In this document: positions 7,102 through 29,133 of the stretch, one piece after another | How positions within the stretch are numbered: the stretch's first letter is position 1 | How the letters are laid out: each line of letters begins with the position of its first letter | Source of the DNA: Metapseudomonas boanensis | GTDB lineage: Bacteria > Pseudomonadota > Gammaproteobacteria > Pseudomonadales > Pseudomonadaceae | Direction of reading: 5' to 3' | NCBI RefSeq assembly: GCF_018704125.1 | Contig: NZ_JAGTIS010000026.1 | Location: 1 to 42,423 of the forward strand | DNA length: 42,423 nt | Made by a program: the position numbers and the translations under genes | The notes under the pieces: generated by a model | The model's database searches: none | The model's input: the letters and a program-made list of their open reading frames with translations, nothing else | Told to the model about the DNA's origin: nothing

Positions 7102-8052
7102 ATGGCCACCACCTTCCGCATCGTCACCCTGACCTTGAGCCCAGCACTGGACCTTGCCACCGGCATCCCGCGGCTATGTCCTAATGACAAGCTGCGCTGC
7201 AGCACGCCGGTGTATGCGCCTGGCGGGGGTGGGATCAATGTGGCCAGGGCGATTCACCGGTTGGGGGGCGAGGCGTTTGCGTTGTTTCCGGCCGGTGGAT
7301 CGACGGGGCAGCACTTGGTGGAGCGGCTGAATGCCGAGGGCGTGGCGAATCGGGTGGTGCCGATTGCGGAGTGGACGCGCGAGTGCATCAACGTGACGAA
7401 CCAGTCCGACGGGCAGCAGTACCGTTTCGTCATGCCCGGCGCCCGGCTCGCGCCGGCGGAGCAGGAAGCCTTGCTCGCTGCACTGGCGGCGATCCCAGCC
7501 CCGGATTACCTGGTGATCAGCGGCAGCCTGCCGGAGGGGCTGGCGGCGGACTTTCTGCCGCGCCTCCTGCAGGGAGCCGTGCGAAACGGGGTGCGCTGCG
7601 TGGTCGACAGCACCGGCCCAGCCCTGCGCCAGGCGCTGGATGTGGGCGGCGTGTTCCTGATCAAACCGAACCTGGAGGAACTGAGCGCGCTGGCCGGGGT
7701 GGCTATCGCCGGGCCGGAACAACTGGCACAACTGGCGCGCGGGCTGGTGGAGGCGGGGTGCTGTCAGGGTGTCCTGGTGTCCCTGGGGCCTCAAGGCGCG
7801 CTACTGGTGACCGACTCGCTGATCGAGCGCATTCCGGCGCCGACGGTGCCGCGCCGCAGTACGGTCGGCGCGGGCGACAGCCTGGTCGCGGCGGTCACGC
7901 TGAAGCTGGCGGCGGGAGCCGGGTGGCTGGAGGCGGCGCGTTACGGCGTGGCCGCGGGGACGGCTGCGATCATGACCGAAGGCAGCGAGTTGTGCCGCGT
8001 GGAAGAGACGGAGCGATTGTTTGGGTGGCTGCAGGGCGCCCCCGCTCCTTAA
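7102..8052 (+). CDS. pfkB: PfkB-type 6-phosphofructokinase II
   Basis: A 316-residue ribokinase-family sugar kinase. It matches 6-phosphofructokinase II of E. coli better than FruK or LacC: TLTLSPALDLAT at the N-terminus, KLRC at 30-33, GGGGINVARAI at 41-51 (FruK has a different glycine motif), QQYRFVMPGARL near 106-117, and the C-terminal GAGDS anion hole with catalytic Asp at about 259. The expected reaction is ATP-dependent phosphorylation of fructose 6-phosphate to fructose 1,6-bisphosphate. The ATG at 7102 begins the conserved fold; the open frame extends upstream through the tRNA fragment, which cannot be coding. It has no operon partner and ends convergently with the racemase gene. 1-Phosphofructokinase or tagatose kinase activity is a less likely alternative. 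Confidence 0.85.
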   Translation: MATTFRIVTLTLSPALDLATGIPRLCPNDKLRCSTPVYAPGGGGINVARAIHRLGGEAFALFPAGGSTGQHLVERLNAEGVANRVVPIAEWTRECINVTNQSDGQQYRFVMPGARLAPAEQEALLAALAAIPAPDYLVISGSLPEGLAADFLPRLLQGAVRNGVRCVVDSTGPALRQALDVGGVFLIKPNLEELSALAGVAIAGPEQLAQLARGLVEAGCCQGVLVSLGPQGALLVTDSLIERIPAPTVPRRSTVGAGDSLVAAVTLKLAAGAGWLEAARYGVAAGTAAIMTEGSELCRVEETERLFGWLQGAPAP

Positions 8053-8071
8053 AGAGGAGAAGAAGCGGGGG
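8039..8071. terminator. Hairpin between convergent pfkB and racemase genes
   Basis: CCCCCGCT at 8039-8046 pairs with AGCGGGGG at 8064-8071. The hairpin overlaps both stop codons and has no long T run, so it may be a bidirectional terminator or part of the dispersed CTCACCCC repeat family seen at 17090, 29036 and 32724. Confidence 0.4.
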
Positions 8072-8810
8072 TGAGGGCCGGCCAGGCAAACCCCTGCAAG
8101 AACCCCGCATAGGGCTTGGCCAGCGGATAATCCAAGTCCCCCCGCTTGCTGGTGCTCAGCTTCAGCTCCCCGAGCATTTCCACCATTTTCAACGCCGCGC
8201 TCACGCCGTCGATGACCGGCACGCCCAGCTCCTCGGTCAGCTCGGTGGCCAGGTGGCTCATGCCGGCGCAGCCGAGCACGATGGCGCCGGATTCGTCCCG
8301 TTCCAACGCTCCGGCGCAGGCCGTGCGCATGCTACGCAGCAGGCCCTCGGGGTCGTCATCCAGCGCCAGCACCGGAATTTCCACCGCGTGAATGCCCCGG
8401 CAATGCTGGTGGAAGCCGTAGCGTTCCACCAGGTGACGGGCGATGACCTTGGTGCGGCCGAGGGTGGTGACGATGCTGAAACCGGTGGCGACCCAGGTGG
8501 CCAGGTGCATGGCAGCTTCGGCGATGCCGATCACCGGGTGCCGGGCGATCTCTCGCGCGGCCAGCAGGCCGGGGTCGCCAAAGCAGGCGATCACATGGCC
8601 CTGAACACCATTGCGCTCGCCATCACGGATCGCCTGGAGCAACCCTGGCACGCTCAGCGCTTCGTCGTAGTGGCCTTCGATAGAGGCTGGGCCGGCGCTA
8701 TTGGTCACCGCCAGCAACTGGTTGCCGGGGTGCAGCACCTGCCGCGCCGCATCAGCGAGGCTGGCCGTCATGGCGGCACTGGTGTTCGGGTTGATCAGCT
8801 GGATCTTCAT
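8049..8810 (-). CDS. Asp/Glu/hydantoin racemase family protein
   Basis: A 253-residue cytoplasmic enzyme of the Asp/Glu/hydantoin racemase superfamily. It shows the hallmark N-terminal INPNTS motif and two catalytic-type cysteines, Cys76 in VIACFGDPG and Cys181 in VLGCAGMSH, the positions expected for cofactor-independent hydantoin or allantoin racemases. These use a two-thiol mechanism to invert a stereocentre of a ring ureide. The start at 8810 (MKIQLINPN) fits the family; the longer frame reads into the regulator upstream. It follows the GntR gene by 8 bp, so the two form a minus-strand operon divergent from the ABC importer. The last residues (LTPASSPL) are read from a dispersed intergenic repeat. 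The substrate could also be a non-hydantoin compound, since maleate isomerases share the fold. Confidence 0.82.
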   Translation of the reverse strand: MKIQLINPNTSAAMTASLADAARQVLHPGNQLLAVTNSAGPASIEGHYDEALSVPGLLQAIRDGERNGVQGHVIACFGDPGLLAAREIARHPVIGIAEAAMHLATWVATGFSIVTTLGRTKVIARHLVERYGFHQHCRGIHAVEIPVLALDDDPEGLLRSMRTACAGALERDESGAIVLGCAGMSHLATELTEELGVPVIDGVSAALKMVEMLGELKLSTSKRGDLDYPLAKPYAGFLQGFAWPALTPASSPL

Positions 8811-8818
8811 GGCCGAGG

Positions 8819-9508
8819 TCAGGTCTCGATCAGGTGTTTTAGCGGGTGGTAGTTCGCCTTGAGCTTGCCGGCCACGTCGAGGATGGCGTTTTCGATACCC
8901 GCCAGGTGAATACAGGTCAGTTCGATGGCAGCGTTCTGGTTGCCAGCCTCGATGAACTCGATCAGCCGTAGGTGCTCGTCGTCGCGGCACACGTCATGAC
9001 GGTCGTCGTCCAGCGCAGCGGCGTAGAGCGAGGCGCGGGAAATCAGCTTGCGGAACCAGTCCAGCAGCACCGGGTTATTAAGGGCCTCGGCCAGCTTGAT
9101 ATGGAACTCGCCGAGCAAGTGGATCAGCCGTTGGTGATCGTGCTCGCGCCTGGCCTCTTCTTCCAGCAGAAGGTGATCGCGCAGGTCGCACATGGCCGCG
9201 CTGTCCCGGCGCCGGCAAAGTTCGGTGACGATACCGATCTCGATCAACCGCCGCGTTTCGAACAGCGAGCGGATCTCTTCGTCACTGGGTAGTGATACCC
9301 AGGCACCTTTGTTTGGCTCGGTGGACACCAGCCCATCCGCTTCCAGTTGCTTGAGCGCTGCCCGCACCGAGGTGCGGCTGACGTTGAACAACTCGGCCAG
9401 CGAGGCCTCGCCCAGTTTCATCCCCGGGCGCAACGAGCGATTGCTGATGGCCTGGTAAACCCCTTGGTAAACACGGTCCACCGTGGTTTCCAGCTTCTTG
9501 TCTGCCAT
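8819..9508 (-). CDS. GntR-family regulator with FCD ligand domain
   Basis: A 229-residue transcription factor. Residues 1-70 form the GntR winged helix (LAELFNVSRTSVRAALKQLEADGLV), followed by a helical FCD domain with the acidic/histidine metal-binding pattern of the family (EFHIKLAEAL, HDVCRDDEHLRLIEFIEAGN, CIHLAGIENAIL). FCD regulators usually repress catabolic genes until an acid or intermediate binds. The ATG at 9508 is preceded by GGAG at good spacing. It heads the operon with the racemase and is divergent from the ABC importer. Near-repeat decamers in the divergent promoter (9606-9628) are likely operators. Confidence 0.88.
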   Translation of the reverse strand: MADKKLETTVDRVYQGVYQAISNRSLRPGMKLGEASLAELFNVSRTSVRAALKQLEADGLVSTEPNKGAWVSLPSDEEIRSLFETRRLIEIGIVTELCRRRDSAAMCDLRDHLLLEEEARREHDHQRLIHLLGEFHIKLAEALNNPVLLDWFRKLISRASLYAAALDDDRHDVCRDDEHLRLIEFIEAGNQNAAIELTCIHLAGIENAILDVAGKLKANYHPLKHLIET

Positions 9509-9605
9509 TCGAGACTCCGTAATTCCGTGCGCAAACCGTTTCAAGCGGAAACAAGCCCGCAGAAAAACCCGGTTGCGCTGTCAGCATAATCCGAGTATTT
9601 CTAGA

Positions 9606-9628
9606 TTGCATTCAATTTTTGCATACAA
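9606..9628. promoter_or_regulatory. Putative GntR operator: tandem TTGCATNCAA sites
   Basis: TTGCATTCAA (9606-9615) and TTGCATACAA (9619-9628) are direct repeats 13 bp apart in the divergent GntR/ABC-importer intergenic region. Each is a degenerate palindrome of the TTG-N4-CAA kind used by many FCD-type GntR regulators. They lie 22-44 bp before the importer start codon, where a bound repressor would block transcription. Confidence 0.55.
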
Positions 9629-9649
9629 AAACAAGAGGAATGCACCAAT

Positions 9650-10738
9650 ATGAAGCACACATCGACTATCGAGGTGCAACACGTCAGCAAGCGCTACACG
9701 GACGACCTCGAGGTTAGCCCTGCGCTCGATGACGTCTCGGTGACCATCCAGCACAACGAATTCTTCACCCTCCTCGGCCCCTCGGGCTGCGGCAAGACCA
9801 CGCTGCTAAGGTCCATCGCCGGTTTCGAGCAGGTCACTTCCGGCGATATCCGCATCGGCGGGCAACGGGTCAACGACCTGCCGCCGTTCAAGCGCCGGGT
9901 CAATACCGTGTTCCAGAATTACGCACTCTTCCCGCATATGAGCGTGGCGGAGAATATCGCCTTCGGCCTGGAGATGCAGGGGCTGGATCGCGGGGCCATT
10001 CCAGGGCGGGTCAAGGAAATGCTGGCCCTGGTGCAGATGGAGCACCTGGCCAAGCGTCGCCCCGCCGAACTGTCCGGCGGCCAGCAGCAGCGCGTGGCCC
10101 TGGCCCGAGCGCTGGCGCCCAAGCCCGACGTGCTACTGCTGGACGAGCCACTGTCGGCGCTGGACCTGAAGCTGCGCAAGGAGATGCAGGTCGAGCTCAA
10201 GCGCGTACAGCAGGAGGCTGGCATCACGTTCATCTTCGTCACCCACGATCAGGAAGAAGCGCTGACGCTCTCCGACCGTATCGCAGTGATGTCGTCCGGC
10301 AAGATCCTCCAGGTCGGCAGCCCCAACGAAATCTACGAACGCCCGCAGCACCGGTTCGTCGCGCACTTCATCGGCGACATCAACTTCCTGCCCGGTAACC
10401 TGCGCCAATGCCCGCAGAACGGCAGCCTGTTCCAGCCTGAGGGCCTGCCGGTGGAAATCCCCTGCAACCTCGGCGAACGTGCCAACAGCGGCAAGATGCA
10501 GCTGGCCTTCCGCCCCGAGCGTTCGAAGCTGGTGGAACCGAGCCAGCCACACCACCTGCGCGGCGTGATCGAGGCGGTGCTCTATGTCGGCACCGCCACC
10601 CTCTACCAGTGCCGGCTCCCCAATGACGCGAAGGTGATGCTGCGCGAAAGCAACGAGGGCGGCTCCAGCGCCCGTGCGGTCGGCTCGCAAGTGGCGGTGC
10701 ATCTGCCACCCCACGCCTGCCTGCTGATGGAGGCCTGA
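9650..10738 (+). CDS. Polyamine/opine-type ABC importer, ATP-binding subunit
   Basis: A 362-residue PotA-like ATPase of a PotABCD-type importer. Residues around 45 carry Walker A (GPSGCGKTT), then the Q-loop ([10 protein letters not shown]), signature LSGGQQQR, Walker B LLLDEP, D-loop SALD and the switch histidine in THDQEEA. A C-terminal TOBE-type domain follows from about 235. A GAGGAA ribosome site precedes the ATG at 9650. It is the first gene of an unbroken four-gene transporter run. PotA-family systems import putrescine/spermidine but also opines, taurine-like or other cationic and amide compounds, so the substrate is not fixed. The context of racemase and cyclic amidohydrolases suggests a nitrogen heterocycle or ureide. 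Confidence 0.92.
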
Positions 10739-10739
10739 G

Positions 10740-11654
10740 ATGAGCGTCAGCGCTACTCCCCCGAGCCTCAATCGCCTGCTGCTGCTCTCCCCGGTGCTGC
10801 TCACCCTGATCGGTCTGATCGCCATTCCGCTCGGCATCATGGGCTACATCAGCCTGCTGCCGCGCAACCTCTACGGCGGCGTCGACTGGAGCGCCGACTG
10901 GCAATGGCAGAGCTATGTGCAGCTGTTCTTCCAGGAGGACTTCGACGGCAATCTGGAACTCAACTGGGTCTACGCCCAAGCGCTGCTGCGCTCGGTGCTC
11001 CAGGCCGGCGGTACCACCTTGCTGTGCTTCCTCTTCGGCTTCCCCGTAGCCTTGTGGATGAGCAGCCTCAGCGAGCGTTCGCGCAACCTGATGGTGTTGC
11101 TGATCACCATCCCGTTCTGGACCAACCTGCTGATCCGCAACTACGCCTGGCTGATCATCCTGCGCGAGCACGGCTGGCTGGCGCAGAGTCTCAACGCGCT
11201 GTTCCCGCAGGCCGGAGGCATCACCCTGCTGTACAACGACTTCGCCGTGGTGATCGGCCTGGTCTACAGCTTCCTGCCGTTCATGATCCTGCCGATCTAC
11301 TCCACCCTGGAGAAGCTCGACTGGCGCCTGGTGGAAGCTGCCTACGACCTCGGCGCCAACCGCGTCAAAGCCCTGCGCCGGGTGATCCTGCCGCTGTCCA
11401 TGCCCGGCGTGGTGGCCGGCTCCCTGCTGGTGTTCGTGCCGAGCCTGGGTGCCTTCATCACCCCGGCGATCCTCGGTGGCGGCAAGACACTGATGATCGG
11501 CAACCTGATCCAGCAGCAGTTCGGCACCGCGCGCAACTGGCCGCTGGGCAGCTCGCTGTCGTTCCTCCTGCTCGGCCTGATGCTGCTCGCTCTGGTTTTC
11601 TACGCCCTCTACAGCCGCAAGGTCGCCAAAGCCGTCCGCCAGGGAGCCCGCTGA
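10740..11654 (+). CDS. PotB-like ABC importer permease
   Basis: A 304-residue inner-membrane permease with about six helices. The N-terminal helix LLLLSPVLLTLIGLIAIPLG is followed by a periplasmic segment, and the coupling EAA loop reads EAAYDLGANRVKALRRVILP near residue 200. It starts two bases after the stop of the ATPase and its TGA overlaps the next ATG (TGATG), so the three genes are translationally coupled. It pairs with the next permease to form the transmembrane heterodimer. Confidence 0.92.
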   Translation: MSVSATPPSLNRLLLLSPVLLTLIGLIAIPLGIMGYISLLPRNLYGGVDWSADWQWQSYVQLFFQEDFDGNLELNWVYAQALLRSVLQAGGTTLLCFLFGFPVALWMSSLSERSRNLMVLLITIPFWTNLLIRNYAWLIILREHGWLAQSLNALFPQAGGITLLYNDFAVVIGLVYSFLPFMILPIYSTLEKLDWRLVEAAYDLGANRVKALRRVILPLSMPGVVAGSLLVFVPSLGAFITPAILGGGKTLMIGNLIQQQFGTARNWPLGSSLSFLLLGLMLLALVFYALYSRKVAKAVRQGAR

Positions 11655-12445
11655 TGATCGCCAACCACCTGAAGAAATTGCCGCTGACCCGCGAAACCAG
11701 CCTGCTGGTCCTGGCCTACCTGTACCTGCCGATCCTGGTGCTGATCGCCTACAGCTTCAACGCCAACCGCACCGCCACGGTCTGGACCGAGTTCTCCTTC
11801 GCCTGGTACGGGCGCATCCTGGCCAACCCGTCGATCCAGGCAGCGGCGCTGAACTCGGTAATCGTCGCTGGCATCGCCACCGTGTGCGCCACCGCCATTG
11901 CCCTACTGGCGGCCCTGGCCACCTACCGGCCGTTCTACGGCCAGAAGATGGTGGAAGGCGGCATCAACCTGCCGTTGATCCTGCCGGAGATCGTCACCGC
12001 CGTAGCCACGCTGCTGCTGTTCATGGCGCTCGGCATCAAGCTCGGCTTGCTGACGGTGATCATCGCCCACGTCGGCTTCTGCATCCCCTTTGCCTACCTG
12101 CCGATCCGCGCACGCTTGAACGACCTGGACAAGAGCCTGCTGGAGGCTGCCAACGACCTCTACGCCAACCCCTTCCACACCTTCCGCCGGGTAACCCTGC
12201 CGCTGCTTTTCCCGGCGGTGCTGTCCGGCGCGGTGCTGGCGTTCGTGGTCAGCCTCGACGACTTCATCATGACCTTCTTCGTCGCTGGCCCCGGCTCGAC
12301 GACGCTGCCGGTCTACATCTTCTCGGCCATCAAGGCCGGGGTGACTCCCGAGATCAACGCCATCTCGACCCTGATGCTGGCGATCTCGATCGTGCTGGTG
12401 GTCCTGTCGTACTGGCTCGGCCAGCGTGGCAAACCCACCACCTGA
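11654..12445 (+). CDS. PotC-like ABC importer permease
   Basis: A 263-residue second permease, about six helices, with the EAA loop EAANDLYANPFHTFRRVTLP near residues 160-180 and the PotC-type start LLVLAYLYLPILVLIAYSFN. The ATG at 11654 shares its first base with the stop of the preceding gene. A longer open frame upstream in this reading frame belongs to no family and is discarded. Followed after 50 bp by the binding protein. Confidence 0.92.
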   Translation: MIANHLKKLPLTRETSLLVLAYLYLPILVLIAYSFNANRTATVWTEFSFAWYGRILANPSIQAAALNSVIVAGIATVCATAIALLAALATYRPFYGQKMVEGGINLPLILPEIVTAVATLLLFMALGIKLGLLTVIIAHVGFCIPFAYLPIRARLNDLDKSLLEAANDLYANPFHTFRRVTLPLLFPAVLSGAVLAFVVSLDDFIMTFFVAGPGSTTLPVYIFSAIKAGVTPEINAISTLMLAISIVLVVLSYWLGQRGKPTT

Positions 12446-12495
12446 TCCATCGCTCCACTACTGCCCAACCCTGTTATTCAACCCGGAGAAAAACA

Positions 12496-13548
12496 ATGAA
12501 GTTGAAAGCATTGCGTCATGGGGTAGCCGGTTTTGCCCTGAGTTGTTTCGCCGCGAGCTTCGCCCAGGCGGATGAGCCCAAGGAGCTGTTCTTCTACAAC
12601 TGGACCGACTACTACCCGGTGGAGCTGCTGGCCAAGTTCGAGAAGGAGACCGGCATCAAGGTCACCATGGACGGCTACGACAGCAACGAAACCCTGCTGG
12701 CCAAGCTGCAGGCCGGCGGCGCCGCGTACGACGTGATCGTGCCGTCGCACTCGATCATGCGCACCCTGATCAAGCAGGGCTACCTGCAGGAAATCGACGC
12801 CTCCAGCCTGCCGAACTTCGTGCATGTGAAACCGGCCTTCCGCGACCCCGATTTCGATCCCGGCCGCAAGTATTCGGCGCCCTACCTCTGGGGCACGACC
12901 GGTTTCTCCTATGACAGCGCACGGGTGCCGGGCGGCAAGCTGGATGACTCCTGGAAGGAGTTCTTCGAGCCGCGTCCCGAACTCCAGGGCCAGCTCGCCG
13001 CGCTGGACACTCCCAGCAGTGTGATCAACGCCGCCAGCCACTACCTGGGCGTGGATGAGTGCAGCGAGAATCCACAGGACGCCAAGCGCATCCTCGAGCT
13101 GCTGCAGAAGCAAAAGCCCTTCCTGAAGATGTACAGCTCCGACAACACCGTGGACCGCATGGCCTCGGGCGAGGTGATCATGATGCAGAACTGGAACGGC
13201 TCCACCGCCCGCGCCACCCTGCAGAAGAGCACCATCAAATACGTCTATCCGCGTGAAGGCGTGGCCATGTTCCAGGACAACTTCGCCGTGCCGAAAAGTG
13301 CGCCGCACCCGGGCAACGCGAAGATCTTCATCGACTGGATGATGAAACCGGAAAACGCTGCCGCCGTGTCCAACGCGATTGCCTACGCCAACGGCATCGA
13401 CAGCGACAAGCTTCTCGACGCCAAGTGGAAAGTGATGGACGCCATCAACATGCCCGACGAATACGCCGAACGCCTGCGTCCCGAGAAGGAGTGCAGCAAC
13501 CAGGCGCGCGAACTGCAGGACCGCATCTGGTCCAAGCTCAAGGGCTGA
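12496..13548 (+). CDS. PotD/PotF-like periplasmic substrate-binding protein
   Basis: A 350-residue solute-binding protein. A Sec signal peptide ends near FAQA-DEP (about residue 26). The mature start LFFYNWTDYYPVELLAKFEK is the classic PotD/PotF opening, where the aromatic cluster lines the ligand pocket. GYDSNETLLAKLQAGGAAYD and VPSHSIMRTLIKQGYLQEID follow as in the family. It is the last gene of the transporter block and is separated from the enzyme genes by a REP palindrome at 13562-13620, which can act as a 3' stabiliser to allow more binding protein than permease. Exact ligand unknown; the residues that contact polyamines are only partly recognisable by eye. Confidence 0.9.
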   Translation: MKLKALRHGVAGFALSCFAASFAQADEPKELFFYNWTDYYPVELLAKFEKETGIKVTMDGYDSNETLLAKLQAGGAAYDVIVPSHSIMRTLIKQGYLQEIDASSLPNFVHVKPAFRDPDFDPGRKYSAPYLWGTTGFSYDSARVPGGKLDDSWKEFFEPRPELQGQLAALDTPSSVINAASHYLGVDECSENPQDAKRILELLQKQKPFLKMYSSDNTVDRMASGEVIMMQNWNGSTARATLQKSTIKYVYPREGVAMFQDNFAVPKSAPHPGNAKIFIDWMMKPENAAAVSNAIAYANGIDSDKLLDAKWKVMDAINMPDEYAERLRPEKECSNQARELQDRIWSKLKG

Positions 13549-13561
13549 CGATCCAAGCCCT

Positions 13562-13620
13562 GTAGGAGCGCGCTTGCTCGCGAAGAGCCCGCGCACATTC
13601 GCGAGCTTGCTCGCTCCTAC
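13562..13620. repeat. Paired REP palindrome (REPIN-like)
   Basis: Two oppositely oriented REP units: GTAGGAGCG...CTTGCTCGCGAA and TTCGCGAGCTTGCTCG...CTCCTAC. The outer arms GTAGGAGCG (13562-13570) and CGCTCCTAC (13612-13620) pair. This GTAGGAGCG type is a common extragenic palindrome in pseudomonads, here between the transporter and enzyme parts of the cluster. Confidence 0.85.
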
Positions 13621-13659
13621 GGGAACACATCGTGCCACCACACTACTTCAGAGGTTCCC

Positions 13660-14856
13660 ATGGCTGATAGCTACTGGCTGCGCAACGTCCGCCCCTTGGG
13701 CGGCGCAGCCGAAGACTTCCTGATCCGTGACGGTCTGCTCGTCGAGCGCCGCCCGGCCTCTACTGGACCAGGTGCAGCCGGCGATATCGACGGCGCCGGC
13801 CGGCTCATGACCCCTGCCCTGGTGGAAAGCCACATCCACCTGGACAAGACCCTCTGGGGTCAACCCTGGCGCCCCAATAGCGCCGGCCCGACACTCAAGG
13901 ACTACATCGCCAACGAGCGCCGCGTACTACGCGAGGTCACCGCACCCATCGCCGAGCGCGCCGGCGCCCTGCTCGAAAACTGCATCGCCCGCGGCTCGCT
14001 GACCATGCGTTGCCATGTGGATATCGATCCCGAATTCGGCCTGCGCCATGTCGAAGCCATGCAGGCCTTGCAGGCGCGCTACCACGACCTGATCGACCTG
14101 GAGCTGGTGGTCTTTCCGCAAACCGGGCTGGTCAGCCGCCCTGGTACCGCCGAGCTGATGCGTGAAGCCCTCGGCCTGGGCGTGGAGAACGTCGGCGGTC
14201 TCGACCCCTGTGGCATCGACAACGACCCCATCACCCAGCTCGACATCGTCTTTGGTCTCGCTGCCGAGTTCGACCGCGGGGTCGACATTCACCTGCACGA
14301 CAAAGGCGAACTCGGCCTCTGGCAGATCGCCCGCATCGCCGACTACACCGAACGCTTCGCCCGTCAGGGCAAGGTGATGATCAGCCACGCCTACTGCTTA
14401 GGGATGGCGCCCTGGGGGCAAGTGCGGCCGCTGGCCGAACGCCTGGCCGCCCTCGGAATCTCCCTGATGAGTTCGGCACCGGCCGACTGCGCCGTGCCAC
14501 CCTTCCTCGCCCTGCATGAGGCGGGCGTGAACCTCTGCCTGGGCTCGGACGGCATCCGCGATGCCTGGTCGCCCATGGGCAACGGCGACATGCTCGAACG
14601 TGCAATGCTTCTGGCCTTCCGCTTCGACCTGAACAAGGACGAAGAACTGGTCGCAGCCTTCGAGGCCGCCTCGAGCCACGGCGCCATGGCGCTGGGTCGT
14701 GAAGTTAATTGCCTTGTGCCCGGCCAGCGCGCCGACTTCCTGCTGCTGCCCGCGCAGAGCCTGGGTGAAGCGGTCGTCGCCCGACCGCAACGCCAGGTGT
14801 TCCGTGCCGGCCGGCTGGTCGCCGATTCGGGCCGTCTGCTGGAGAGCCGCCTGTGA
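13660..14856 (+). CDS. Cytosine-deaminase-like amidohydrolase
   Basis: A 398-residue metal-dependent hydrolase of the cytosine deaminase/AtzC group. Strand 1 carries the metal pair H58-x-H60 in VESHIHLDKTLWG; the HxHxDK form is typical of cytosine-deaminase-like enzymes. Further ligands are the His in VDIHLHDKGELG (about 210), the His in MISHAYCLG (about 245) and the Asp in CLGSDGIRDAWSP (about 297). It would deaminate or open an amino-substituted N-heterocycle such as a pyrimidine, creatinine-like or triazine-like ring. The gene overlaps the next hydrolase by 4 bp (GTGA), suggesting they act in the same pathway. CodA-type cytosine deaminase is possible, but the spacing around the catalytic Glu differs, so I name only the family. 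Confidence 0.85.
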   Translation: MADSYWLRNVRPLGGAAEDFLIRDGLLVERRPASTGPGAAGDIDGAGRLMTPALVESHIHLDKTLWGQPWRPNSAGPTLKDYIANERRVLREVTAPIAERAGALLENCIARGSLTMRCHVDIDPEFGLRHVEAMQALQARYHDLIDLELVVFPQTGLVSRPGTAELMREALGLGVENVGGLDPCGIDNDPITQLDIVFGLAAEFDRGVDIHLHDKGELGLWQIARIADYTERFARQGKVMISHAYCLGMAPWGQVRPLAERLAALGISLMSSAPADCAVPPFLALHEAGVNLCLGSDGIRDAWSPMGNGDMLERAMLLAFRFDLNKDEELVAAFEAASSHGAMALGREVNCLVPGQRADFLLLPAQSLGEAVVARPQRQVFRAGRLVADSGRLLESRL

Positions 14857-16355
14857 CCGCGCCGCGCCGCATCGGCCTCAAGGCCAGCTGCGTGGTCGGC
14901 TTCGACGGCAGTCGCCACGTGCTCTGGCGCGATGGCGAGGTGGTCATCGAAGGCGCGCGCATTCTCTTCGTCGGCCGCGGCTTTCCCGGCCCGGTCGACC
15001 AGTGGATCGACTACGGCAACGCCCTGCTCGGCCCAGGTTTCATCGACCTCGACGCCCTAGGCGATCTCGACTCCACCGTGCTCACCCTCGACAACGGCGA
15101 CGAGCGCGACATGGGCCGCATGTGGTCGGCAGAGTACCTGGCCACGGGACCGCGTGAGAGCTATAGCTTCGACGAAGAAGTATTCAAGTACCGCTACGCC
15201 TTCACCCAACTGATCCGCAACGGCATCACCACGGCCATGCCGATCACCTCCATGTACTACCGCGAGTGGGCGGAGACCTTCGACGAGTTCGCCGCCGTGG
15301 CCGACGTGGCGGCCGAACTGGGTCTGCGCACCTACCTCGGCCCTTGCTACATGAGCGGCATGCAATACCTGCGCGCCGACGGCACCCTGGCCGAGCACTG
15401 GGATGAACCCCGCGGCTTGGCCGGATTGGACGCTGCCGAGCGCTTCTTCCGCGAATTCGATGGCAGCCACGGCGGCCTGATCCGTGGCGCCCTGCTGCCC
15501 GATCGCATCCAGACCTGCACTCCGGCGCTGCTGCAACGCACCGCCGCCCTCAGCTGCGAACTGGCCGCCCCGGTGCGCCTGCATTGCTGCCAGGGCCCCG
15601 GTGAAGTGAAGCGGGTCAAACGACTGCGTGGCCTGGCGCCGCTGGCCTGGCTGGAACACCTCGACCTGCTCGGCCCTCGCAGCGTGCTGCCCCATGGCAT
15701 CTACATCGAAGGCGACGACGACCTGGCGCGCCTCGCCGACAGCGGCACCAGCCTGATCCACTGCCCGGTGGTGTTCGCCCGTGACGGCGAGGCCCTGGAC
15801 TCCTTCGGCCGCTACCGTGCCCGTGGCATCAACTTCGCGCTGGGCACCGACACCTGGCCGGCGGACCTGCTGGACAACATGCGCCAGGGTCTGAACATCG
15901 CCCGCATCAAGGCAGGCGGCAACCAGGGCACCAGCGCCCTCGATTTCTACAACGCTGCCACCCTCGGTGGCGCCAAGGCCCTGGGTCGCGACGACCTCGG
16001 CCGCCTGGCGCCGGGTGCGCGTGCCGACATCACCGTGTTCAGCCTCGCTGGCATGCACCTCGGCCCGCTGTTCGACCCGCTGAAGAACCTGATCCTCGCC
16101 GGCCGTGGCGACGACTGCATCGCCAGCTGGATCGACGGCCGCTGCGTGATGCACGACGGCCAGGTGAACGGCGTCGACTACGCGAGTCTCCAGCACCAGG
16201 CCCAGCAGCAGTTCCACGCGCTGATGCGGAGCCACGCCACGCGCGCCTTCGGCCAACCCGACTGGCGCAGTCTGTTCCAACCGGCCATCCCCTTCGCCGA
16301 TGCCTGGAGCGAAGCGCGGCCGCTCTGCACCCTCGCCAGCGCGTCCGGCCAATAA
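14853..16355 (+). CDS. Amidohydrolase-fold protein lacking the HxH metal motif
   Basis: A 500-residue protein with the TIM-barrel plan of TRZ/ATZ-type (chlorohydrolase) amidohydrolases, starting at a GTG overlapping the previous stop. The C-terminal ligands are present: H244 in VRLHCCQG, H281 in VLPHGIYIEG, H303 in LIHCPVVFARDG, and D333 in LGTDTWPADLLDNMRQGLN. At strand 1, where the family has H-x-H after GFID, this protein reads GFIDLDALGDLDS (63-75), so the two histidines are replaced by aspartates D65/D67. It may bind its metal differently, act on another chemistry, or have lost hydrolase activity. It sits between the cytosine-deaminase-like enzyme and a flavoprotein, so it is probably needed for the same pathway. 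Confidence 0.8.
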   Translation: MTAPRRIGLKASCVVGFDGSRHVLWRDGEVVIEGARILFVGRGFPGPVDQWIDYGNALLGPGFIDLDALGDLDSTVLTLDNGDERDMGRMWSAEYLATGPRESYSFDEEVFKYRYAFTQLIRNGITTAMPITSMYYREWAETFDEFAAVADVAAELGLRTYLGPCYMSGMQYLRADGTLAEHWDEPRGLAGLDAAERFFREFDGSHGGLIRGALLPDRIQTCTPALLQRTAALSCELAAPVRLHCCQGPGEVKRVKRLRGLAPLAWLEHLDLLGPRSVLPHGIYIEGDDDLARLADSGTSLIHCPVVFARDGEALDSFGRYRARGINFALGTDTWPADLLDNMRQGLNIARIKAGGNQGTSALDFYNAATLGGAKALGRDDLGRLAPGARADITVFSLAGMHLGPLFDPLKNLILAGRGDDCIASWIDGRCVMHDGQVNGVDYASLQHQAQQQFHALMRSHATRAFGQPDWRSLFQPAIPFADAWSEARPLCTLASASGQ

Positions 16356-16367
16356 AGAGAACACGCC

Positions 16368-17030
16368 ATGCTGAGCTTCGACTTCGCCCAACTGGGCCCC
16401 CGTGAGAAATACAAGATCCTCATCGGCAGCGTGGTGCCCCGGCCTATCGCCCTGGTCACCACGGTGGATGCGCAAGGACGCGCAAATGCCGCGCCCTTCA
16501 GCTTCTTCAACGCCCTCTCCGCCGACCCGCCGATCCTTGCCTTGGGGGTGGAAAACCACGCTGACCTCAGCCCCAAGGACACCACGCGTAACATCCTGCT
16601 GAACCAGGAGTTCACCGTGAACATCGTCAGCGATGCGCTGGTGGAAGCCATGAACGTCTGCGCCGTGCCCTTCGAACCGGGCTTCGACGAACTGATTGCT
16701 GCAGGGCTGACCGCCATCCCCGGCAGCCGCGTCGGTTGCCCGCGGATCAAGGAAGCGCCTGTGGCCCTGGAATGTCGGCGCATGATGGGCCTGTCCATCG
16801 GCCAATCGCGGGAAATCATCCTCGGCGAAGTGCTGATGGCCCACGTGCGCGAAGAGCTGATCGACCCGCAGACGCTGTATATCGACCAGCTCGGGCTGGA
16901 TGCCATCGGCCGCATGGGCGGGCATGGCTATGCACGGACGCGGGATTATTTCGATCTACCGACGCGATCGCTGCAGGCGTGGAAGGAACAGCCGGGAGGT
17001 GGGGAAAGGGTATGGCCTGCGGAGTCGTAG
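16368..17030 (+). CDS. Flavin-reductase-like FMN-binding protein
   Basis: A 220-residue split-barrel flavin reductase-like domain protein. Characteristic parts are IGSVVPRPIALVTTVDAQGRANAAPFSFFN (about residues 20-48) and PKDTTRNILLNQEFTVNIVS, which build the FMN site. Such proteins supply reduced flavin to a monooxygenase or act directly as reductases; no partner monooxygenase is visible here. It begins 12 bp after the second amidohydrolase with a GAGA-type ribosome site, so it is the last gene of the catabolic operon. A hairpin repeat follows at 17090. Confidence 0.87.
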   Translation: MLSFDFAQLGPREKYKILIGSVVPRPIALVTTVDAQGRANAAPFSFFNALSADPPILALGVENHADLSPKDTTRNILLNQEFTVNIVSDALVEAMNVCAVPFEPGFDELIAAGLTAIPGSRVGCPRIKEAPVALECRRMMGLSIGQSREIILGEVLMAHVREELIDPQTLYIDQLGLDAIGRMGGHGYARTRDYFDLPTRSLQAWKEQPGGGERVWPAES

Positions 17031-21300: not shown

Positions 21301-22686
21301 ATGGGCACCCTAGGTATCCTGATTTCGCTTGCGCTGTTGATGTACCTCGCCTACCGCGGCATCAACGTCCTGATCCTCGCCCCGTTGCTGGCCCTGCTTG
21401 CCGTGCTTTTCGCCGGTGACGTTGCATTGATGCTGCCGACCTACACCCAGGTCTTCATGAAAGCCCTGGGCGGCTACCTGATCCAGTTCTTCCCGCTGTT
21501 CCTGCTCGGTGCCATCTTCGGCAAGTTGATGGACGACTCCGGCTCGGCCCGCGCCATTGCCCAAGGCATCGTCACCAAGCTGGGCCGCGAGCGGGCCATC
21601 CTTGCCATCGTCCTGGCCTGCGGCCTGCTGACCTACGGCGGCGTCTCGCTGTTCGTGGTGGCCTTCGCGGTCTACCCGATCGGTACCGCGCTATTCCGCG
21701 AGGCGGGCATTCCCAAGCGTCTGCTGCCGGGCGCCATTGCCCTAGGCGCCTTCACCTTCACCATGACCGCATTGCCCGGCACCCCGGCGATCCAGAACGC
21801 CATCCCCAGCCCGTTCTTCGGCACCGACGCCTTCGCCGCGCCGATCCTCGGGCTGATCGGCGGCCTGATGATGCTCGGCCTCGGCAGCTGGTGGCTGAGC
21901 GCCCAAGCGCGGCAACTGATGGCTGCCGGCGAGGGCTACGGAAGCCACAAGGACGACACCCTGGAGCTGACCGGGGTGCCGAATACCGGCTTCTGGATCG
22001 CCCTGCTGCCAATTCTGCTGGTGATCGCGTTGAACTTCGTGATGGCCAAGCAAGTGCTGCCCGCCGTCGACACCAGCTACCTGGCCAAGCCCGAGTTCGG
22101 TGGCTTGCAGGACGCCAAGTCGCTGATCGGTATCTGGTCGATCATCGTTGCCCTGGCGGCAGCCGTGCTGTTGCTGGTCGGCCTGCACTGGAAGCGCTGG
22201 GTCGACCTCAAGCAGAGCGTCAACGACGGCACCTTCGGCTCCATGCTGCCGATCCTCAACACCGCCTCCGAAGTGGGTTACGGCTCGGTGATCGCCTCCC
22301 TGGCCGGCTTCGTGGTGATCCGCGACCTGGTGCTGAGCGTGCCGGGCAACCCGCTGGTGTCCGAAGCCGTAGCGGTGAACATCCTCGCCGGCATCACTGG
22401 TTCGGCCTCGGGCGGCATGTCCATCGCCCTCAAGACCCTGGGCGCGCAATACCTGGCGATGGCCAACGCTGCCGGCATCAGCCCCGAACTGCTGCACCGC
22501 GTCGCCGCGATGGCCTCCGGCTGCATGGACACCCTGCCGCACAACGGTGCGGTGATCTCGCTGCTGGCCATTTGCAAGCTGACCCACCGCGACTCGTACA
22601 AATTCATCTTCATGAACACCGTGATCTTCCCGCTGATGGCACTCACCGTGGTGATCACCCTGGGCAGCCTGTTCGGGAGTTTCTGA
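21301..22686 (+). CDS. GntP-family permease
   Basis: A 461-residue inner-membrane transporter of the GntP family, about twelve helices. Family features include GRERAILAIVLACGLLTYGGVSLFVVAFAVYPIG in the first half (as in GntP and hydroxybutyrate permeases), TALPGTPAIQNAIPSPFFGT, and a C-terminal GITGSASGGMSIAL and MASGCMDTLPHNGAVI. GntP proteins take up gluconate or short hydroxy/keto acids by proton symport. Its coupling to a CoA-transferase makes a short-chain carboxylate such as a hydroxybutyrate or acetoacetate-like acid more likely than gluconate. An AAGGAA ribosome site is present. Transcription probably depends on sigma-54. Confidence 0.88.
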   Translation: MGTLGILISLALLMYLAYRGINVLILAPLLALLAVLFAGDVALMLPTYTQVFMKALGGYLIQFFPLFLLGAIFGKLMDDSGSARAIAQGIVTKLGRERAILAIVLACGLLTYGGVSLFVVAFAVYPIGTALFREAGIPKRLLPGAIALGAFTFTMTALPGTPAIQNAIPSPFFGTDAFAAPILGLIGGLMMLGLGSWWLSAQARQLMAAGEGYGSHKDDTLELTGVPNTGFWIALLPILLVIALNFVMAKQVLPAVDTSYLAKPEFGGLQDAKSLIGIWSIIVALAAAVLLLVGLHWKRWVDLKQSVNDGTFGSMLPILNTASEVGYGSVIASLAGFVVIRDLVLSVPGNPLVSEAVAVNILAGITGSASGGMSIALKTLGAQYLAMANAAGISPELLHRVAAMASGCMDTLPHNGAVISLLAICKLTHRDSYKFIFMNTVIFPLMALTVVITLGSLFGSF

Positions 22687-22690
22687 TCAG

Positions 22691-22806
22691 CTTTGTGGCT
22701 TTGTGGCTTTGTGGGGGCACATTCATTCGCTAAGCAGGCCGAAGGGCTGCCCTTGTGATCCTTATGGGGCGGCTGCGCAGCCCCTAGCGATTGGAATCGC
22801 CCCCCC
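22691..22806. repeat. Degenerate REP element with tandem CTTTGTGG
   Basis: Three tandem copies of CTTTGTGG (22691-22714) run into a degenerate REP unit with ATTCATTCGC and a matching GCGATTGGAATCGC end. It separates the permease from the CoA-transferase and may shape relative expression. The rest of the 168-bp gap holds the AGGTAA ribosome region for the next gene. Confidence 0.6.
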
Positions 22807-22854
22807 AGGACAAGCAGAGCCTTCATCCCCAGATCAATCCGCTCGAGGTAAACC

Positions 22855-24423
22855 ATGAGCAAAGTGATGAGCGCCGCCGAGGCGGTGGCGCGGATTCCGG
22901 ATAACGCCAACCTGGCCAGCGGCGGCTTCGTCGGCATCGGTTTCGCCGAGGAGATCGCCATCGCCCTGGAGCAGCGTTTCCAGGCCGAGCAGGCGCCGCA
23001 GGGCCTGACCCTGGTGTATGCCGCAGGCCAGGGCGACGGCAAAGGCCGTGGCCTCAACCATCTGGCCCACGAAGGCCTGGTGCGCCGGGTGATCGGCGGC
23101 CATTGGGGCCTGGTGCCGGGGCTGCAGAAGCTGGCGGTGGAGAACCGCATCGAGGCCTACAACCTGCCACAGGGCGTGATCTCGCAGCTGTTCCGCGACA
23201 TTGCCGCGGGCAAGCCGGGGCAGCTGTCCAAGGTGGGCCTGGGCACCTTCGTCGACCCTGCATTCGGCGGTGGCAAGCTCAATGAGCGGACCACCGACGA
23301 TCTGGTGCGGCGCATGCCCATCGATGGTGAGGACTACCTGTTCTACAAGACCTTCCCGATCAACGTCGGAGTGATCCGCGCTACCAGCGCGGACGAGGAC
23401 GGAAACCTTTCCATGGAGCGCGAGGCACTGACCATCGAGAGCCTGGCCATCGCCATGGCCGCGCGCAATTCGGGCGGTCTGGTCATTGCACAGGTGGAAC
23501 GCGTCGTAGCGCGCGGCTCGCTCAACCCGCGAGAGGTGAAAGTGCCCGGCATCCTGGTCGACTGTGTGGTGGTGGCTCGCGCGGAAAACCACCAGCAGAC
23601 CTTCGCCACCACTTACAACCCGGCCTTCGCCGCCGAGGTGCAGGTGCCCACCGACAGCCTGGCGCCGATGCCGCTGGACCTGCGCAAGCTGATTGCCCGC
23701 CGCGCCGCTCTGGAGCTGCCGCCCGGTGCTGTGGTCAACCTCGGCATCGGCATGCCTGAAGGCGTGGCCGCGGTGGCCGCCGAGGAAGGCGTGATCGACC
23801 TGCTGACGCTGACCGCCGAGCCCGGCGTGATCGGTGGCGTGCCGGCCTCCGGCCTGGACTTCGGCGCAGCGAGCAACCACGCCGCGCTGATCGACCAGCC
23901 CTACCAGTTCGACTTCTACGACGGCGGCGGTCTGGACATCGCTTTCCTGGGCTTGGCCCAGGCCGATGCAGAAGGCAACCTCAACGTCTCCAAGTTCGGC
24001 TCGCGACTGGCCGGTGCCGGTGGCTTCATCAACATCAGCCAGAACGCCAAGGCGGTTGTCTTCGTCGGGACCTTCACTGCGGGCCCGCAGGACATTCGCA
24101 TCGAGGACGGCGCGCTGCGCATCATCGAGGACGGCGCGGTGCACAAGTTCGTGCGCCAGGTGGAACACCGCACCTTTGCCGGCCGGCTCGCCGCCAAGTC
24201 CGGCAAGCCGGTGCTCTACGTCACCGAGCGCTGCGTGTTCCGCCTGACCACCGAAGGGCTGGAGCTGATCGAGATCGCCCCCGGCGTGGACCTCGAGCGG
24301 GACATTCTCGAACGCATGGATTTCGTCCCCATCGTGCGCGAACCGAAGCGGATGGATACGCGGCTGTTCCGGGAAGAACGCATCGGCCTGCGGAACCTGA
24401 TCGGAGGCGAAAGCCTCACCTGA
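22855..24423 (+). CDS. Acyl-CoA:acetate/3-ketoacid CoA-transferase
   Basis: A 522-residue family I CoA-transferase with both alpha and beta halves fused, as in E. coli YdiF and propionate CoA-transferase. The alpha half contains [16 protein letters not shown] and [10 protein letters not shown]; the beta half contains [13 protein letters not shown] and the catalytic glutamate in [10 protein letters not shown] (Glu about 322). It transfers CoA from acetyl- or succinyl-CoA to a short carboxylic or 3-oxo acid. With the preceding permease it forms an uptake-then-activation pair under the sigma-54 promoter. A strong terminator follows at 24437. Confidence 0.92.
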
Positions 24424-24436
24424 GTTGAAGCGTGAA

Positions 24437-24467
24437 ACGCGGGCTCGTTCTGAGCCCGCGTCTTTTT
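24437..24467 (+). terminator. Intrinsic terminator after the CoA-transferase
   Basis: ACGCGGGCTC (24437-24446) pairs perfectly with GAGCCCGCGT (24452-24461), followed by TCTTTTT. It ends the permease/CoA-transferase transcript, so the porin gene downstream is expressed from read-through or its own promoter. Confidence 0.9.
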
Positions 24468-24547
24468 CCCCTGTCACCCCACTTCAGCCAATACAGGCTG
24501 GAGCGGGCACTGCTGTGCACAGAACAACAACAAGAAGAGGAACCATT

Positions 24548-25807
24548 ATGGATCGCAAGCCCGTCACTCTCGCCCTCTGCGGCACCGCTGCCCTGGCCCT
24601 CTGCGGCCCTGCCAGCGCGGAGTTCATCCAGGACTCCAAAGCCAGCCTCGAACTGCGCAACTTCTACTTCAACCGTGATTTCCGCCAGCAAGGCGCCAAG
24701 CAGAGCAAGGCCGAAGAATGGGCCCAGGGCTTTCTACTGCGCTATGAGTCTGGCTTCACCGAGGGCCCGGTTGGCGTGGGCGTCGACGCCCTCGGCCTGC
24801 TCGGTCTGAAGCTCGACTCCAGCCCCGACCGGGTCGGCACCGGACTACTCAAGTCCGACCGCGAGGTTCCCAACCGTGCCCAGGACGAATATGGCGAACT
24901 CGGCCTGACCGCGAAGCTGCGCGCCTCGCAAAGCACACTGAAGGTCGGCACCCTGCTGCCCAAGTTGCCGGTGGCCCTGCACAACGACAGCCGCCTGCTG
25001 CCGCAAACCTTCCGCGGCGCCTGGCTGAATTCGGCGGAGGTGGAAAACCTCAGCCTGGACCTCGGCCGCTTCGACCGCATCAACCAGCGCAACTCCTCCG
25101 ACAACGAAGAGATGACCGTCTTCAGCGGCGGCAACCGCAACATCACCCTGGGCTCGACCAAGACCACCGACCAGTTCGACTTCGCCGGCGCCACCTACAA
25201 GTGGACGCCGAACCTCGGCACCGCCTATCACTATGGCGGGCTCGACGGCCTCTACAAGCAGCATTACCTGACGCTCAATCACCTGCTGCCGATTGCCGAT
25301 GGGCAGGCGTTGAAGTCCGACCTGCGCTGGGCACGCAGCACCGACGATGGCGGCAGCAACGTGGACAACACCGCAATCGGCGCGCTGTTCACCTACAGCT
25401 TTGGCGCCCATGCCTTCGGCCTCGGCTATCAGCGGATGAGCGGCGACACCGGCTTCGCCTACATCAACGGCACCGACGCCTACCTGGTGAACCTGGTGCA
25501 GATCAATGACTTCGGCAACGAAGACGAACGCTCCTGGCAGGCGCGCTATGACTACAACTTCGCCGCCCTGGGGATTCCCGGCCTGACCTTCATGACCCGC
25601 TACCTGTCGGGCGACAACGTCGACCTGCGCGGCGCGGCCGGTGACGGCAAGGAATGGGAACGCAACACCGACATCGCCTACGTGGTACAGAGCGGACCGC
25701 TGAAGAATGTCGGGATCAGGTGGCGCAACGCGAGCACGCGGAGCAACTTCGGCAGCGATATCGATGAGAACCGGCTGATTCTCAGCTACACCCTGGCGCT
25801 GTGGTGA
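24548..25807 (+). CDS. OprD-family outer-membrane porin
   Basis: A 419-residue substrate-specific porin. A signal peptide of about 24 residues (ALCGTAALALCGPASA) precedes EFIQDSKASLELRNFYFNRD, the canonical OprD mature start. Later family blocks include FRGAWLNSAEVENLSLDLGR and the aromatic terminus (LSYTLALW). The ATG at 24548 has an AGAGGAA site upstream; the longer frame runs through the terminator and is rejected. OprD-group porins let in basic amino acids or small carboxylates (OccD/OccK). Its position after the CoA-transferase favours a carboxylate-specific (OccK-like) role, by inference. Confidence 0.93.
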   Translation: MDRKPVTLALCGTAALALCGPASAEFIQDSKASLELRNFYFNRDFRQQGAKQSKAEEWAQGFLLRYESGFTEGPVGVGVDALGLLGLKLDSSPDRVGTGLLKSDREVPNRAQDEYGELGLTAKLRASQSTLKVGTLLPKLPVALHNDSRLLPQTFRGAWLNSAEVENLSLDLGRFDRINQRNSSDNEEMTVFSGGNRNITLGSTKTTDQFDFAGATYKWTPNLGTAYHYGGLDGLYKQHYLTLNHLLPIADGQALKSDLRWARSTDDGGSNVDNTAIGALFTYSFGAHAFGLGYQRMSGDTGFAYINGTDAYLVNLVQINDFGNEDERSWQARYDYNFAALGIPGLTFMTRYLSGDNVDLRGAAGDGKEWERNTDIAYVVQSGPLKNVGIRWRNASTRSNFGSDIDENRLILSYTLALW

Positions 25808-25815
25808 TGGATGCA

Positions 25816-25901
25816 CGTTGGGCTTCGCAAGCTCAGCGCCAACCTACGAAGTGTGTAGGTTGGTGCGGACCGCGCAGGTCTGAGCGCAGCGAAGCCCAAC
25901 G
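25816..25901. repeat. Inverted repeat with 13-bp arms between convergent genes
   Basis: CGTTGGGCTTCGC (25816-25828) pairs perfectly with GCGAAGCCCAACG (25889-25901); an inner CAACCTACG / TAGGTTGG pair makes a nested stem. It fills the gap between the converging oprD-like and agmatinase genes and resembles the elements at 19068 and 29134. Confidence 0.8.
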
Positions 25902-25910
25902 AAGGCGTGA

Positions 25911-26873
25911 TTACCTCATCCCCAATTTATGCCGCGCCGCATACAGGCACACCATTTCCATCGCCAGGGTCGCGCCGGCCAGGGCGGTGACTTCGGCGTT
26001 GTCGTAGGGTGGCGCCACTTCCACGACATCCATCCCCACCAGGTTGATGCCACGCAGCCCGCGGAGGATTTCCAGCGCCTGGTGGCTGGTGAGGCCGCCG
26101 CACACTGGCGTGCCGGTGCCGGGGGCGAAGGCGGGGTCCAGGCAGTCGATGTCGAAGGTCAGATACACCGGGTTGTCGCCCACCCGCGCGCGGACGCGTT
26201 CAGCGATCTGCTCAGGGGTGTGGCGGTGCACTTCGCGCGCATCCAGCACTTGGAAGCCCATCACGTCGTCATTGGTGGTGCGCAGGCCGATCTGCACCGA
26301 GCGCGCCGGGTCCACCAGTCCCTCGCGGGCGGCGTGGTAGAACATGGTGCCGTGGTCGATGCGCTTCACCTCTTCGTCCGGCCAGGTGTCGCTGTGGGCG
26401 TCGAAGTGGATCAGCGACAGCGGGCCGTGCTTCGCCGCGTGGGCCTTGAGCAGCGGGTAGCTGATGAAGTGATCGCCGCCCAGGGTGAGCATGGCCGCGC
26501 CGGACTCGAGAATGCGCGCGGCATGAGCCTGGATGATTTCCGGGGTGGCCTGCGGAGTGCCATGGTCGAAGGCGCAGTCACCGTAATCGATCACCGCGAG
26601 GTGGTCGAAGGGGTCGAACTCCCAGGGGTAATGGCGAGCCCAGGCCATCTGCACCGAGGCAGCGCGGATCGCACGCGGCCCGAAGCGGCTGCCGGGGCGG
26701 TTGGTGGTGGCGGTGTCGAAGGGCACGCCACTCACCACCAGGTCGACGCCGCGCAGGTCGCGGCTGTAGCGGCGGCGCATGAAGCTGGTGATGCCGGCGT
26801 AGGTGGGTTCGGCGGCCGTGCCGTAGAGGCTGTCACGGGTGATGGCCTGATCGTTTTCGAAGGCGTGGTCCAT
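25911..26873 (-). CDS. speB: Agmatinase (ureohydrolase)
   Basis: A 320-residue arginase-superfamily enzyme that hydrolyses agmatine to putrescine and urea. All manganese-binding motifs are present: GGDHF (His about 135), HFDAHSDT (Asp158, His160, Asp162) and FDIDCLDPAFAPGTGTP (Asp241, Asp243). The sequence follows E. coli SpeB along its length (VDLVVSGVPFDTAT, MDVVEVAPPYDNAEVTALA). The start is set at ATG 26873, nine bases after a GGAG; ATG 26888 or GTG 26897 would add five or eight residues. It lies downstream of the PotF-like protein on the same strand, so the two probably form an operon for agmatine use. Guanidinobutyrase activity is a less likely alternative. Confidence 0.88.
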   Translation of the reverse strand: MDHAFENDQAITRDSLYGTAAEPTYAGITSFMRRRYSRDLRGVDLVVSGVPFDTATTNRPGSRFGPRAIRAASVQMAWARHYPWEFDPFDHLAVIDYGDCAFDHGTPQATPEIIQAHAARILESGAAMLTLGGDHFISYPLLKAHAAKHGPLSLIHFDAHSDTWPDEEVKRIDHGTMFYHAAREGLVDPARSVQIGLRTTNDDVMGFQVLDAREVHRHTPEQIAERVRARVGDNPVYLTFDIDCLDPAFAPGTGTPVCGGLTSHQALEILRGLRGINLVGMDVVEVAPPYDNAEVTALAGATLAMEMVCLYAARHKLGMR

Positions 26874-26946
26874 CTCATCGGTCTCCATTGATTCCACTCG
26901 CCCTCTGGGGCGAAGGGTGGGGTGGGGCGAGGTAATTGAAAGCTGC

Positions 26947-28026: not shown

Positions 28027-28137
28027 GGCGGGGCTCCTGGTATCTGGCAGGTGGAGCCATGCTGCGCCGGCCTTTGCTTTGAATAAATATGAAGTGTTCT
28101 ACTTTGGCATCTACAGCCATCAATGTTTGGTGCCACC

Positions 28138-29076: not shown

Positions 29077-29133
29077 CTGTCCGTGCCGGCTCCAAACGTT
29101 GGGGCCGGCATCACTCCGTGCGGGCGATGAGCG

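Follow-up and report, generated by a model that had tools for sequence, protein, structure and literature searches.

What does the nine-gene cluster at positions 8049–17030 of a Metapseudomonas boanensis contig do, and does it correspond to a route that has already been described? The window, meaning the whole stretch of DNA analysed and the source of all numbering used here, is the 42,423-nt contig NZ_JAGTIS010000026.1 (contig C19 of a 5.71 Mb genome in 65 contigs). The cluster encodes a racemase, a GntR/FCD regulator, a PotABCD-type ATP-binding cassette (ABC) importer, two proteins with the amidohydrolase fold, termed AH1 and AH2, and a flavin-reductase-like protein, FR. A first-pass annotation, prepared from the sequence alone, had assigned the positions, order and families of these genes, and model matches confirm all nine; it had further proposed a self-contained pathway that imports and degrades a nitrogen heterocycle. 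Our analysis establishes the nine genes as a real module, linked beyond chance and across classes, which probably serves the uptake and breakdown of a small nitrogen ring compound. Its substrate would be a small ring bearing a ureide or N-C(=N)-N group, with a 5-substituted hydantoin, or the 2-imino (cyclic guanidine) analogue of one, as the likeliest candidate, and the module would be inducible; the probability of this reading is placed slightly below one half (0.47).

The linkage was evaluated by searching for AH2 in two even genome draws. The first comprised 398 genomes of the phylum (Pseudomonadota) and, at a threshold of E ≤ 1e-80, yielded 9 with AH2; the second, queried with the AH2 of genome G276, comprised 385 genomes of the class to which G276 belongs and yielded 5, one of them already found in the first. 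The genomes are coded, and the group names applied to them (Pseudomonadota, Alphaproteobacteria, Burkholderiaceae) were deduced. By coordinates, AH1 directly adjoins AH2 in 9/9 genomes of the first draw. Across the 13 AH2-bearing genomes in total, an adjacent AH1 occurs in 10 and a GntR gene within the fetched stretch in 11, and FR and the racemase are present in 8 each, the racemase matches in G1201 and G1070 being only 29% and 33% identical. A broader collection of 49 AH2 loci, which are related, partly selected and include 22 from Pseudomonadaceae, contains AH1 in 46 (adjacent, on the same strand and within 200 bases in 45), GntR in 45, FR in 37 and the racemase in 29. Within the family draw, AH2 was found in 32 of 198 genomes, and a racemase gene lies near the cluster in 14 of the 22 Pseudomonadaceae loci. 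In S. mexicanum, AH1, FR, the racemase and GntR occur together without AH2. The conservation of linkage that the first-pass annotation had proposed as a check was thus found: homologues are not scattered, and they stay linked across classes even where the importer is exchanged.

This exchange of importers is itself informative. Of the 49 loci, 23 have a PotD-like and 26 a DppB-like (dipeptide-type) importer gene. All 22 Pseudomonadaceae loci carry the PotABCD type, whereas the same enzymes are accompanied by Dpp/Opp-type importers in Leisingera, Marinovum, Sulfitobacter, Gemmobacter, Nitratireductor, Rhizobium and Phyllobacterium, on other named plasmids, and in G559 and G799, both of which belong to the class of the window. 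Since the importer is exchanged while the enzymes stay, it can be argued that the substrate is the constant. In the window, the binding protein is nearest to SpuD/SpuE, followed by PotD and PotF, and its top PDB match is 3TTL, a “polyamine transport protein” (195.8 bits). The residue aligned with PotD Glu171/PotF Glu185, which we take to be a ligand glutamate, is Ser, and the Asp at what we assume to be PotD257/PotF278 is retained. Polyamine specificity is doubtful on the sequence comparison.

AH2 has an unusually altered active site. It retains the TRZ/ATZ amidohydrolase fold and is a member of PRK06151, the “chlorohydrolase family”, a model that itself carries no specific function. However, its HxH metal motif on strand 1 is replaced by D67-A-L69, with D67 in 143/143 aligned rows and L69 in 141/143, the register resting on sequence alignment and on the strand assignment of the model. 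The HxxE motif, whose Glu is catalytic in this fold, reads H244xxQ247, with Gln in all 143 rows and the register taken from the 4DYK alignment. Because the HxH and the catalytic Glu are lost, AH2 should not be classed as an ordinary amidohydrolase, contrary to the first annotation, and by its sequence it is a non-canonical member of the fold.

AH1, in turn, has a complete AtzC-type metal site. Its nearest PDB entries are 6NBO (310.9 bits) and AtzC, 2QT3 (175.7 bits). H58, H60, H211, H243 and D297 are present in 154/154 rows and align with AtzC, completing the set formed by HxH, the strand-5 His, the strand-6 His and the strand-8 Asp, which are the metal ligands of AtzC and cytosine deaminase. 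This full ligand set makes it likely that AH1 is a ring C-N hydrolase, and it is treated here as a putative one. The ligand set and a PRK05985 score above cut-off liken AH1 to amidohydrolases of the AtzC, PRK05985 and pterin-deaminase type; what distinguishes it is that nearly all AH2-adjacent copies are confined to a single region of the AH1 tree. This tree comprises 103 rows, 32 of them AH2-adjacent, after 51 of the 154, mostly near copies, were dropped by hand. It was obtained by a quick method with no bootstrap, and 31 of the 32 AH2-adjacent rows fall within a single 46-row set (Shimodaira–Hasegawa-like approximate likelihood ratio test 93, not starred). The adjacency label changes 7 times on the tree, compared with a mean of 27.7 in 200 label shuffles that ignore relatedness (lowest 21). 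L091 counts as adjacent in the tree and not in the 49-locus tally, as its AH1–AH2 gap is just over 200 bases and its AH1 frame is shortened.

The racemase also bears on the substrate class. Its closest solved structure is 3QVJ (302.7 bits), the Klebsiella pneumoniae allantoin racemase KpAllR (HpxA), with 150 of 239 aligned residues identical (63%). Cys79 and Cys184 of KpAllR are reported as catalytic (PMC12661438); both are retained in the window racemase and in 10 of the 12 cluster racemases aligned. The genome contains three racemase-family genes above cut-off, among which that of the window scores highest, while another resembles an aspartate racemase in sequence. As a difference from KpAllR, no allantoin-pathway gene adjoins the window racemase. 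Some AH2 relatives lie beside ureide-type genes. In L275 (G1070), AH2 adjoins two racemase-family genes, and the locus mixes with hydantoinase and carbamoylase-like genes: a dihydropyrimidinase/D-hydantoinase above cut-off, a nitrilase-family CN_hydrolase nearest to N-carbamoylputrescine amidase and under cut-off, a member of the creatininase family, and a PuuE-like protein that narrowly misses its cut-off. In Sinorhizobium meliloti (L094), an AllB above the TIGR03178 cut-off stands beside AH2. The loci of Leisingera and P. vranovensis pair a racemase-family gene with an NCS1-type permease, whose best match is the general NCS1 model followed by allantoin permease, all under cut-off. The direction towards cyclic ureides is strengthened because the racemase in the window belongs to the allantoin type and some AH2 relatives lie among hydantoinase, carbamoylase-like, creatininase-family and allantoinase genes; a cyclic ureide or imine has about an even chance of being the substrate class. 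The heterocycle pathway proposed at first therefore gains from the linkage, the racemase and the ureide neighbours, and loses AH2 as a normal amidohydrolase.

From these elements we infer a substrate and an order of steps. GntR would repress the genes until an intermediate appears, and the ABC importer would take the compound in. AH1 may then cleave an exocyclic C-N bond by hydrolysis, so that ammonia or an amine is set free and a ring with C=O remains, while the racemase would equilibrate an acidic ring carbon and so make both enantiomers usable. The ring would then be the target of AH2, whose mechanism would depart from the standard one and involve D67, H244, H281 and D333, and the flavoprotein FR would supply a reduction step. 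A more specific version holds that the module is an undescribed cyclic guanidine/ureide pathway, in which AH2 represents a TRZ/ATZ branch working without HxH and the catalytic Glu and performing a different reaction on the AH1 product (ring isomerisation, a lyase reaction, or hydrolysis with a carboxylate-ligated metal); this proposal is tentative and, as it stands, rather unlikely.

A number of observations weigh against the hydantoin or cyclic guanidine reading. Among the 13 genomes, FR is absent in five (G008, G559, G1070, G1170, G1012), the racemase in five (G008, G024, G038, G559, G1012), GntR in two (G1070, G1012) and an adjacent AH1 in three (G1070, G1170, G1012), with the qualification that G1170 is cut short by a contig edge and that G1012 has an interrupted AH2 frame. 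Within Pseudomonadaceae, the racemase is missing from 7 of the 21 loci with room to show it (L057, with 278 bases beyond gntR, was excluded), and FR from L052 and L054. AH1 relatives without AH2 are common: in 100 such loci, a count biased by having been drawn mostly with one AH1 query, FR occurs in 2, the racemase in 10 and GntR in 26. A second AH1 copy in L118, about 160 bases from AH2, falls among the other 57 rows of the tree and is its sole outlier. The ureide evidence has its own exceptions, as the racemase has lost the first Cys in L186 and, in one of two copies, the second Cys in L275; moreover, the L275 case comes from a single genome, in which the additional genes could be part of separate operons. 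Comparison with hydantoin utilisation (hyu) clusters, which the cluster resembles in its hydantoin/allantoin-type racemase and amidohydrolase-fold enzymes, adds a further objection: the cluster adds the AtzC-like deaminase, AH2 and the flavoprotein, and no hydantoinase or N-carbamoylase model matched any of its nine genes. The same nine genes likewise match no RutA-type monooxygenase or other Rut family, in agreement with the earlier annotation, and the likeness to the Rut pyrimidine pathway lies in the PF01613 protein, relatives of which are named RutF by some sources. No established substrate was found for any AH2-linked enzyme. Finally, the claim that the pathway is self-contained is unproven: no partner monooxygenase for FR was found among the nine genes and the scanned LysR gene, and the racemase is not constant.

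Other substrates must be weighed against the ureide and cyclic guanidine proposal. The likeliest alternative is that the cluster handles pterin or folate-derived rings; AH1 would then deaminate pterins, as does Arad3529 from Agrobacterium radiobacter K84, and the remaining enzymes would open the deaminated pterin. The work on Arad3529 is said to have proposed an undescribed pterin pathway, and two genomes of R. rhizogenes, presumably the species of strain K84, contain an AH1-AH2-FR-GntR-Dpp cluster. These genomes also have five and six AH1 relatives, so Arad3529 is not assignable to one of them. At 399 residues, the pterin deaminase of Variovorax F1, which shares 37% identity with Arad3529 (PMC9513972), is almost exactly as long as AH1 with its 398. 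AH1 could yet prove to be a pterin deaminase, but the window racemase fits hydantoin or allantoin better, and the pterin proposal as a whole is unlikely.

Another view is that the cluster forms a side branch of ordinary purine catabolism, with a plain allantoin racemase and amidohydrolases acting on purine derivatives. The identity to the Klebsiella enzyme favours it, as do the NCS1 genes near some relatives and the proximity of the AH2 fold to adenosine-type, isocytosine and guanine deaminases. Some relatives also have neighbours named nucleoside deaminase or xanthine dehydrogenase, which point more to purines or pterins. However, the genome's clear allantoinase, PuuE, is encoded on contig C34, and another that misses the cut-off by 0.7 bits is on C56, both outside the window; a regulator gene and a conserved two-box repeat also belong to the cluster itself. 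We regard the purine proposal as quite unlikely. It is improbable that AH2 works as a conventional metal-dependent deaminase or hydrolase in a cluster degrading triazine-like compounds by an ammelide-type route, given the loss of HxH and the catalytic Glu in 143 rows and the lack of any match to cyanuric acid, biuret or allophanate hydrolase models among the nine window genes. The view that a polyamine importer here adjoins unrelated hydrolases was rejected as the main explanation and is very improbable: the ATPase passes the cut-off of the polyamine-ATPase subfamily and the binding protein is closest to known polyamine binders, but PotB, PotC, PotD and PotF cut-offs are not reached, the presumed ligand Glu is Ser, and the enzymes stay together while the importer type changes.

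A downstream RidA-type gene was also sought as a mark of the Variovorax enzyme. An approximate signature gave 0 matches in 55 sequences. Among eight Burkholderiaceae homologues (32–36% identical), the plus strand of seven loci of about 4.2 kb was read by eye: five showed no RidA-type gene, and in the other two, L265 and L267, the homologue lies on the opposite strand.

Should the proposal of a hydantoin or cyclic guanidine route be correct, an overlooked route for using a nitrogen heterocycle would be common to Pseudomonas species, rhizobia and roseobacters, a function could be assigned to the PRK06151 family and to those PRK05985 proteins that are linked to AH2, and the automated names chlorohydrolase and cytosine deaminase would be wrong for these proteins. 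With AH2, moreover, one can cleanly test to what extent the amidohydrolase fold may stray from its metal chemistry. The module consists of known families with one non-canonical enzyme, and in the open-access literature, with most subscription journals outside its scope, no description of it was found and no paper naming PRK06151 or PRK05985.

Table 1. Genes and sequence elements of the cluster in the M. boanensis window.
Feature	Position	Strand	Model match or context
Racemase, Asp/Glu/hydantoin family, allantoin-racemase type	8049..8810	-	PF01177, 190.9 bits
GntR/FCD regulator, divergent from importer	8819..9508	-	PF00392 and PF07729 above cut-off
Operator-like two-box repeat, TTGCATTCAA-N3-TTGCATACAA	9606..9628		Gap between gntR and importer
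ABC importer ATPase, PotA-like	9650..10738	+	TIGR01187, 373.7 bits, cut-off 355.6 passed
Permease, PotB-like	10740..11654	+	PF00528; PotB model 223.8 bits, under cut-off 348
Permease, PotC-like	11654..12445	+	PF00528; PotC model 250.3 bits, under cut-off 326
Periplasmic binding protein, PotD/PotF/SpuD-like	12496..13548	+	PF13416; PotD model 187.7 bits, cut-off 582
REP-like inverted repeat	13561..13621		Importer/enzyme gene gap; two inverted copies, 0 and 3 mismatches
AH1, AtzC/cytosine-deaminase-like amidohydrolase, complete metal site	13660..14856	+	NF004636 (PRK05985), 515.1 bits, cut-off 408
AH2, amidohydrolase fold, altered active site	14853..16355	+	PRK06151, 714.5 bits, cut-off 416
FR, flavin-reductase-like split-barrel protein	16368..17030	+	PF01613, 90.2 bits

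The genes are listed in Table 1; the GntR gene may alternatively start at a TTG at 9544, and the nearest PDB entry to FR is 4Z85, a 2-nitrobenzoate nitroreductase (136.4 bits). The ATGA/TGATG-style overlaps described in the first-pass annotation hold in part: PotB and PotC meet at a TGATG, whereas AH1 and AH2 overlap by GTGA (AH2 starting with GTG), PotA and PotB are 1 base apart, and 111 bases separate the binding-protein gene from AH1. This gap has a predicted RNA hairpin of -49.7 kcal/mol (z -5.99, 0/200 shuffles as low), and with it the run of genes is not tightly coupled throughout. The repetitive extragenic palindromic (REP)-like repeat in the gap may tune the levels of importer and enzymes, and it is not one of the terminator-like sites found. 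Scans found 0 sigma-70 promoters (chance mean 1.0) and 3 terminators (5.4 by chance), neither above chance.

Regulation appears to be local. The repeat TTGCATTCAA-N3-TTGCATACAA is conserved across the Pseudomonadaceae loci, the second box in 22/22 and the first in 21/22, and the pattern is expected 0 times in the window from 100 shuffles. In the whole genome, the copy upstream of the importer is the only site within 3 mismatches, itself with 0. As the reversed pattern used as a control also gives 1 match per strand at 3 mismatches, only the exact match and the conservation carry weight. The simplest reading is that a local GntR repressor acts on this candidate operator. The GntR of P. vranovensis (L186) shares about 70% identity with that of the window, and ATGCATACAA-N3-TTGCATACAA separates its gene from the NCS1-racemase pair; chance alone would give single boxes in that locus, which counts against the ureide reading, and the similarity is suggestive only. 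At L186:11195-13398, the GntR/AH1-type genes adjoin a binding protein of the PotD type as well as an agmatine deiminase above cut-off.

Further genes accompany AH1 relatives elsewhere. Five Pseudomonadaceae loci (L038, L039, L041, L042, L043) contain, downstream of FR, another AH1-type gene with about 56% identity (e.g., L038:10201-12196), followed in L038 by a Lys/Arg/Orn-type binding protein above cut-off. On an R. leguminosarum plasmid (L122:7851-11676), a gene named questin oxidase family precedes the AH1 relative, after which come a gene annotated as 8-oxoguanine deaminase and a further amidohydrolase. In R. rhizogenes NBRC 13257 (L228:489-4766), reading of the open reading frames places two phosphoribosyltransferase-like frames and an energy-coupling factor (ECF)-type transporter beside the AH1-AH2 cluster. 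Within the window itself, the downstream stretch 21301-30695 carries a GntP-family permease (31.2 bits, cut-off 22.5), an OprD porin, a LysR gene, an agmatinase above cut-off (25914-26897) and a glutamine-synthetase-family gene (29232-30695), and is perhaps a guanidino-compound cluster.

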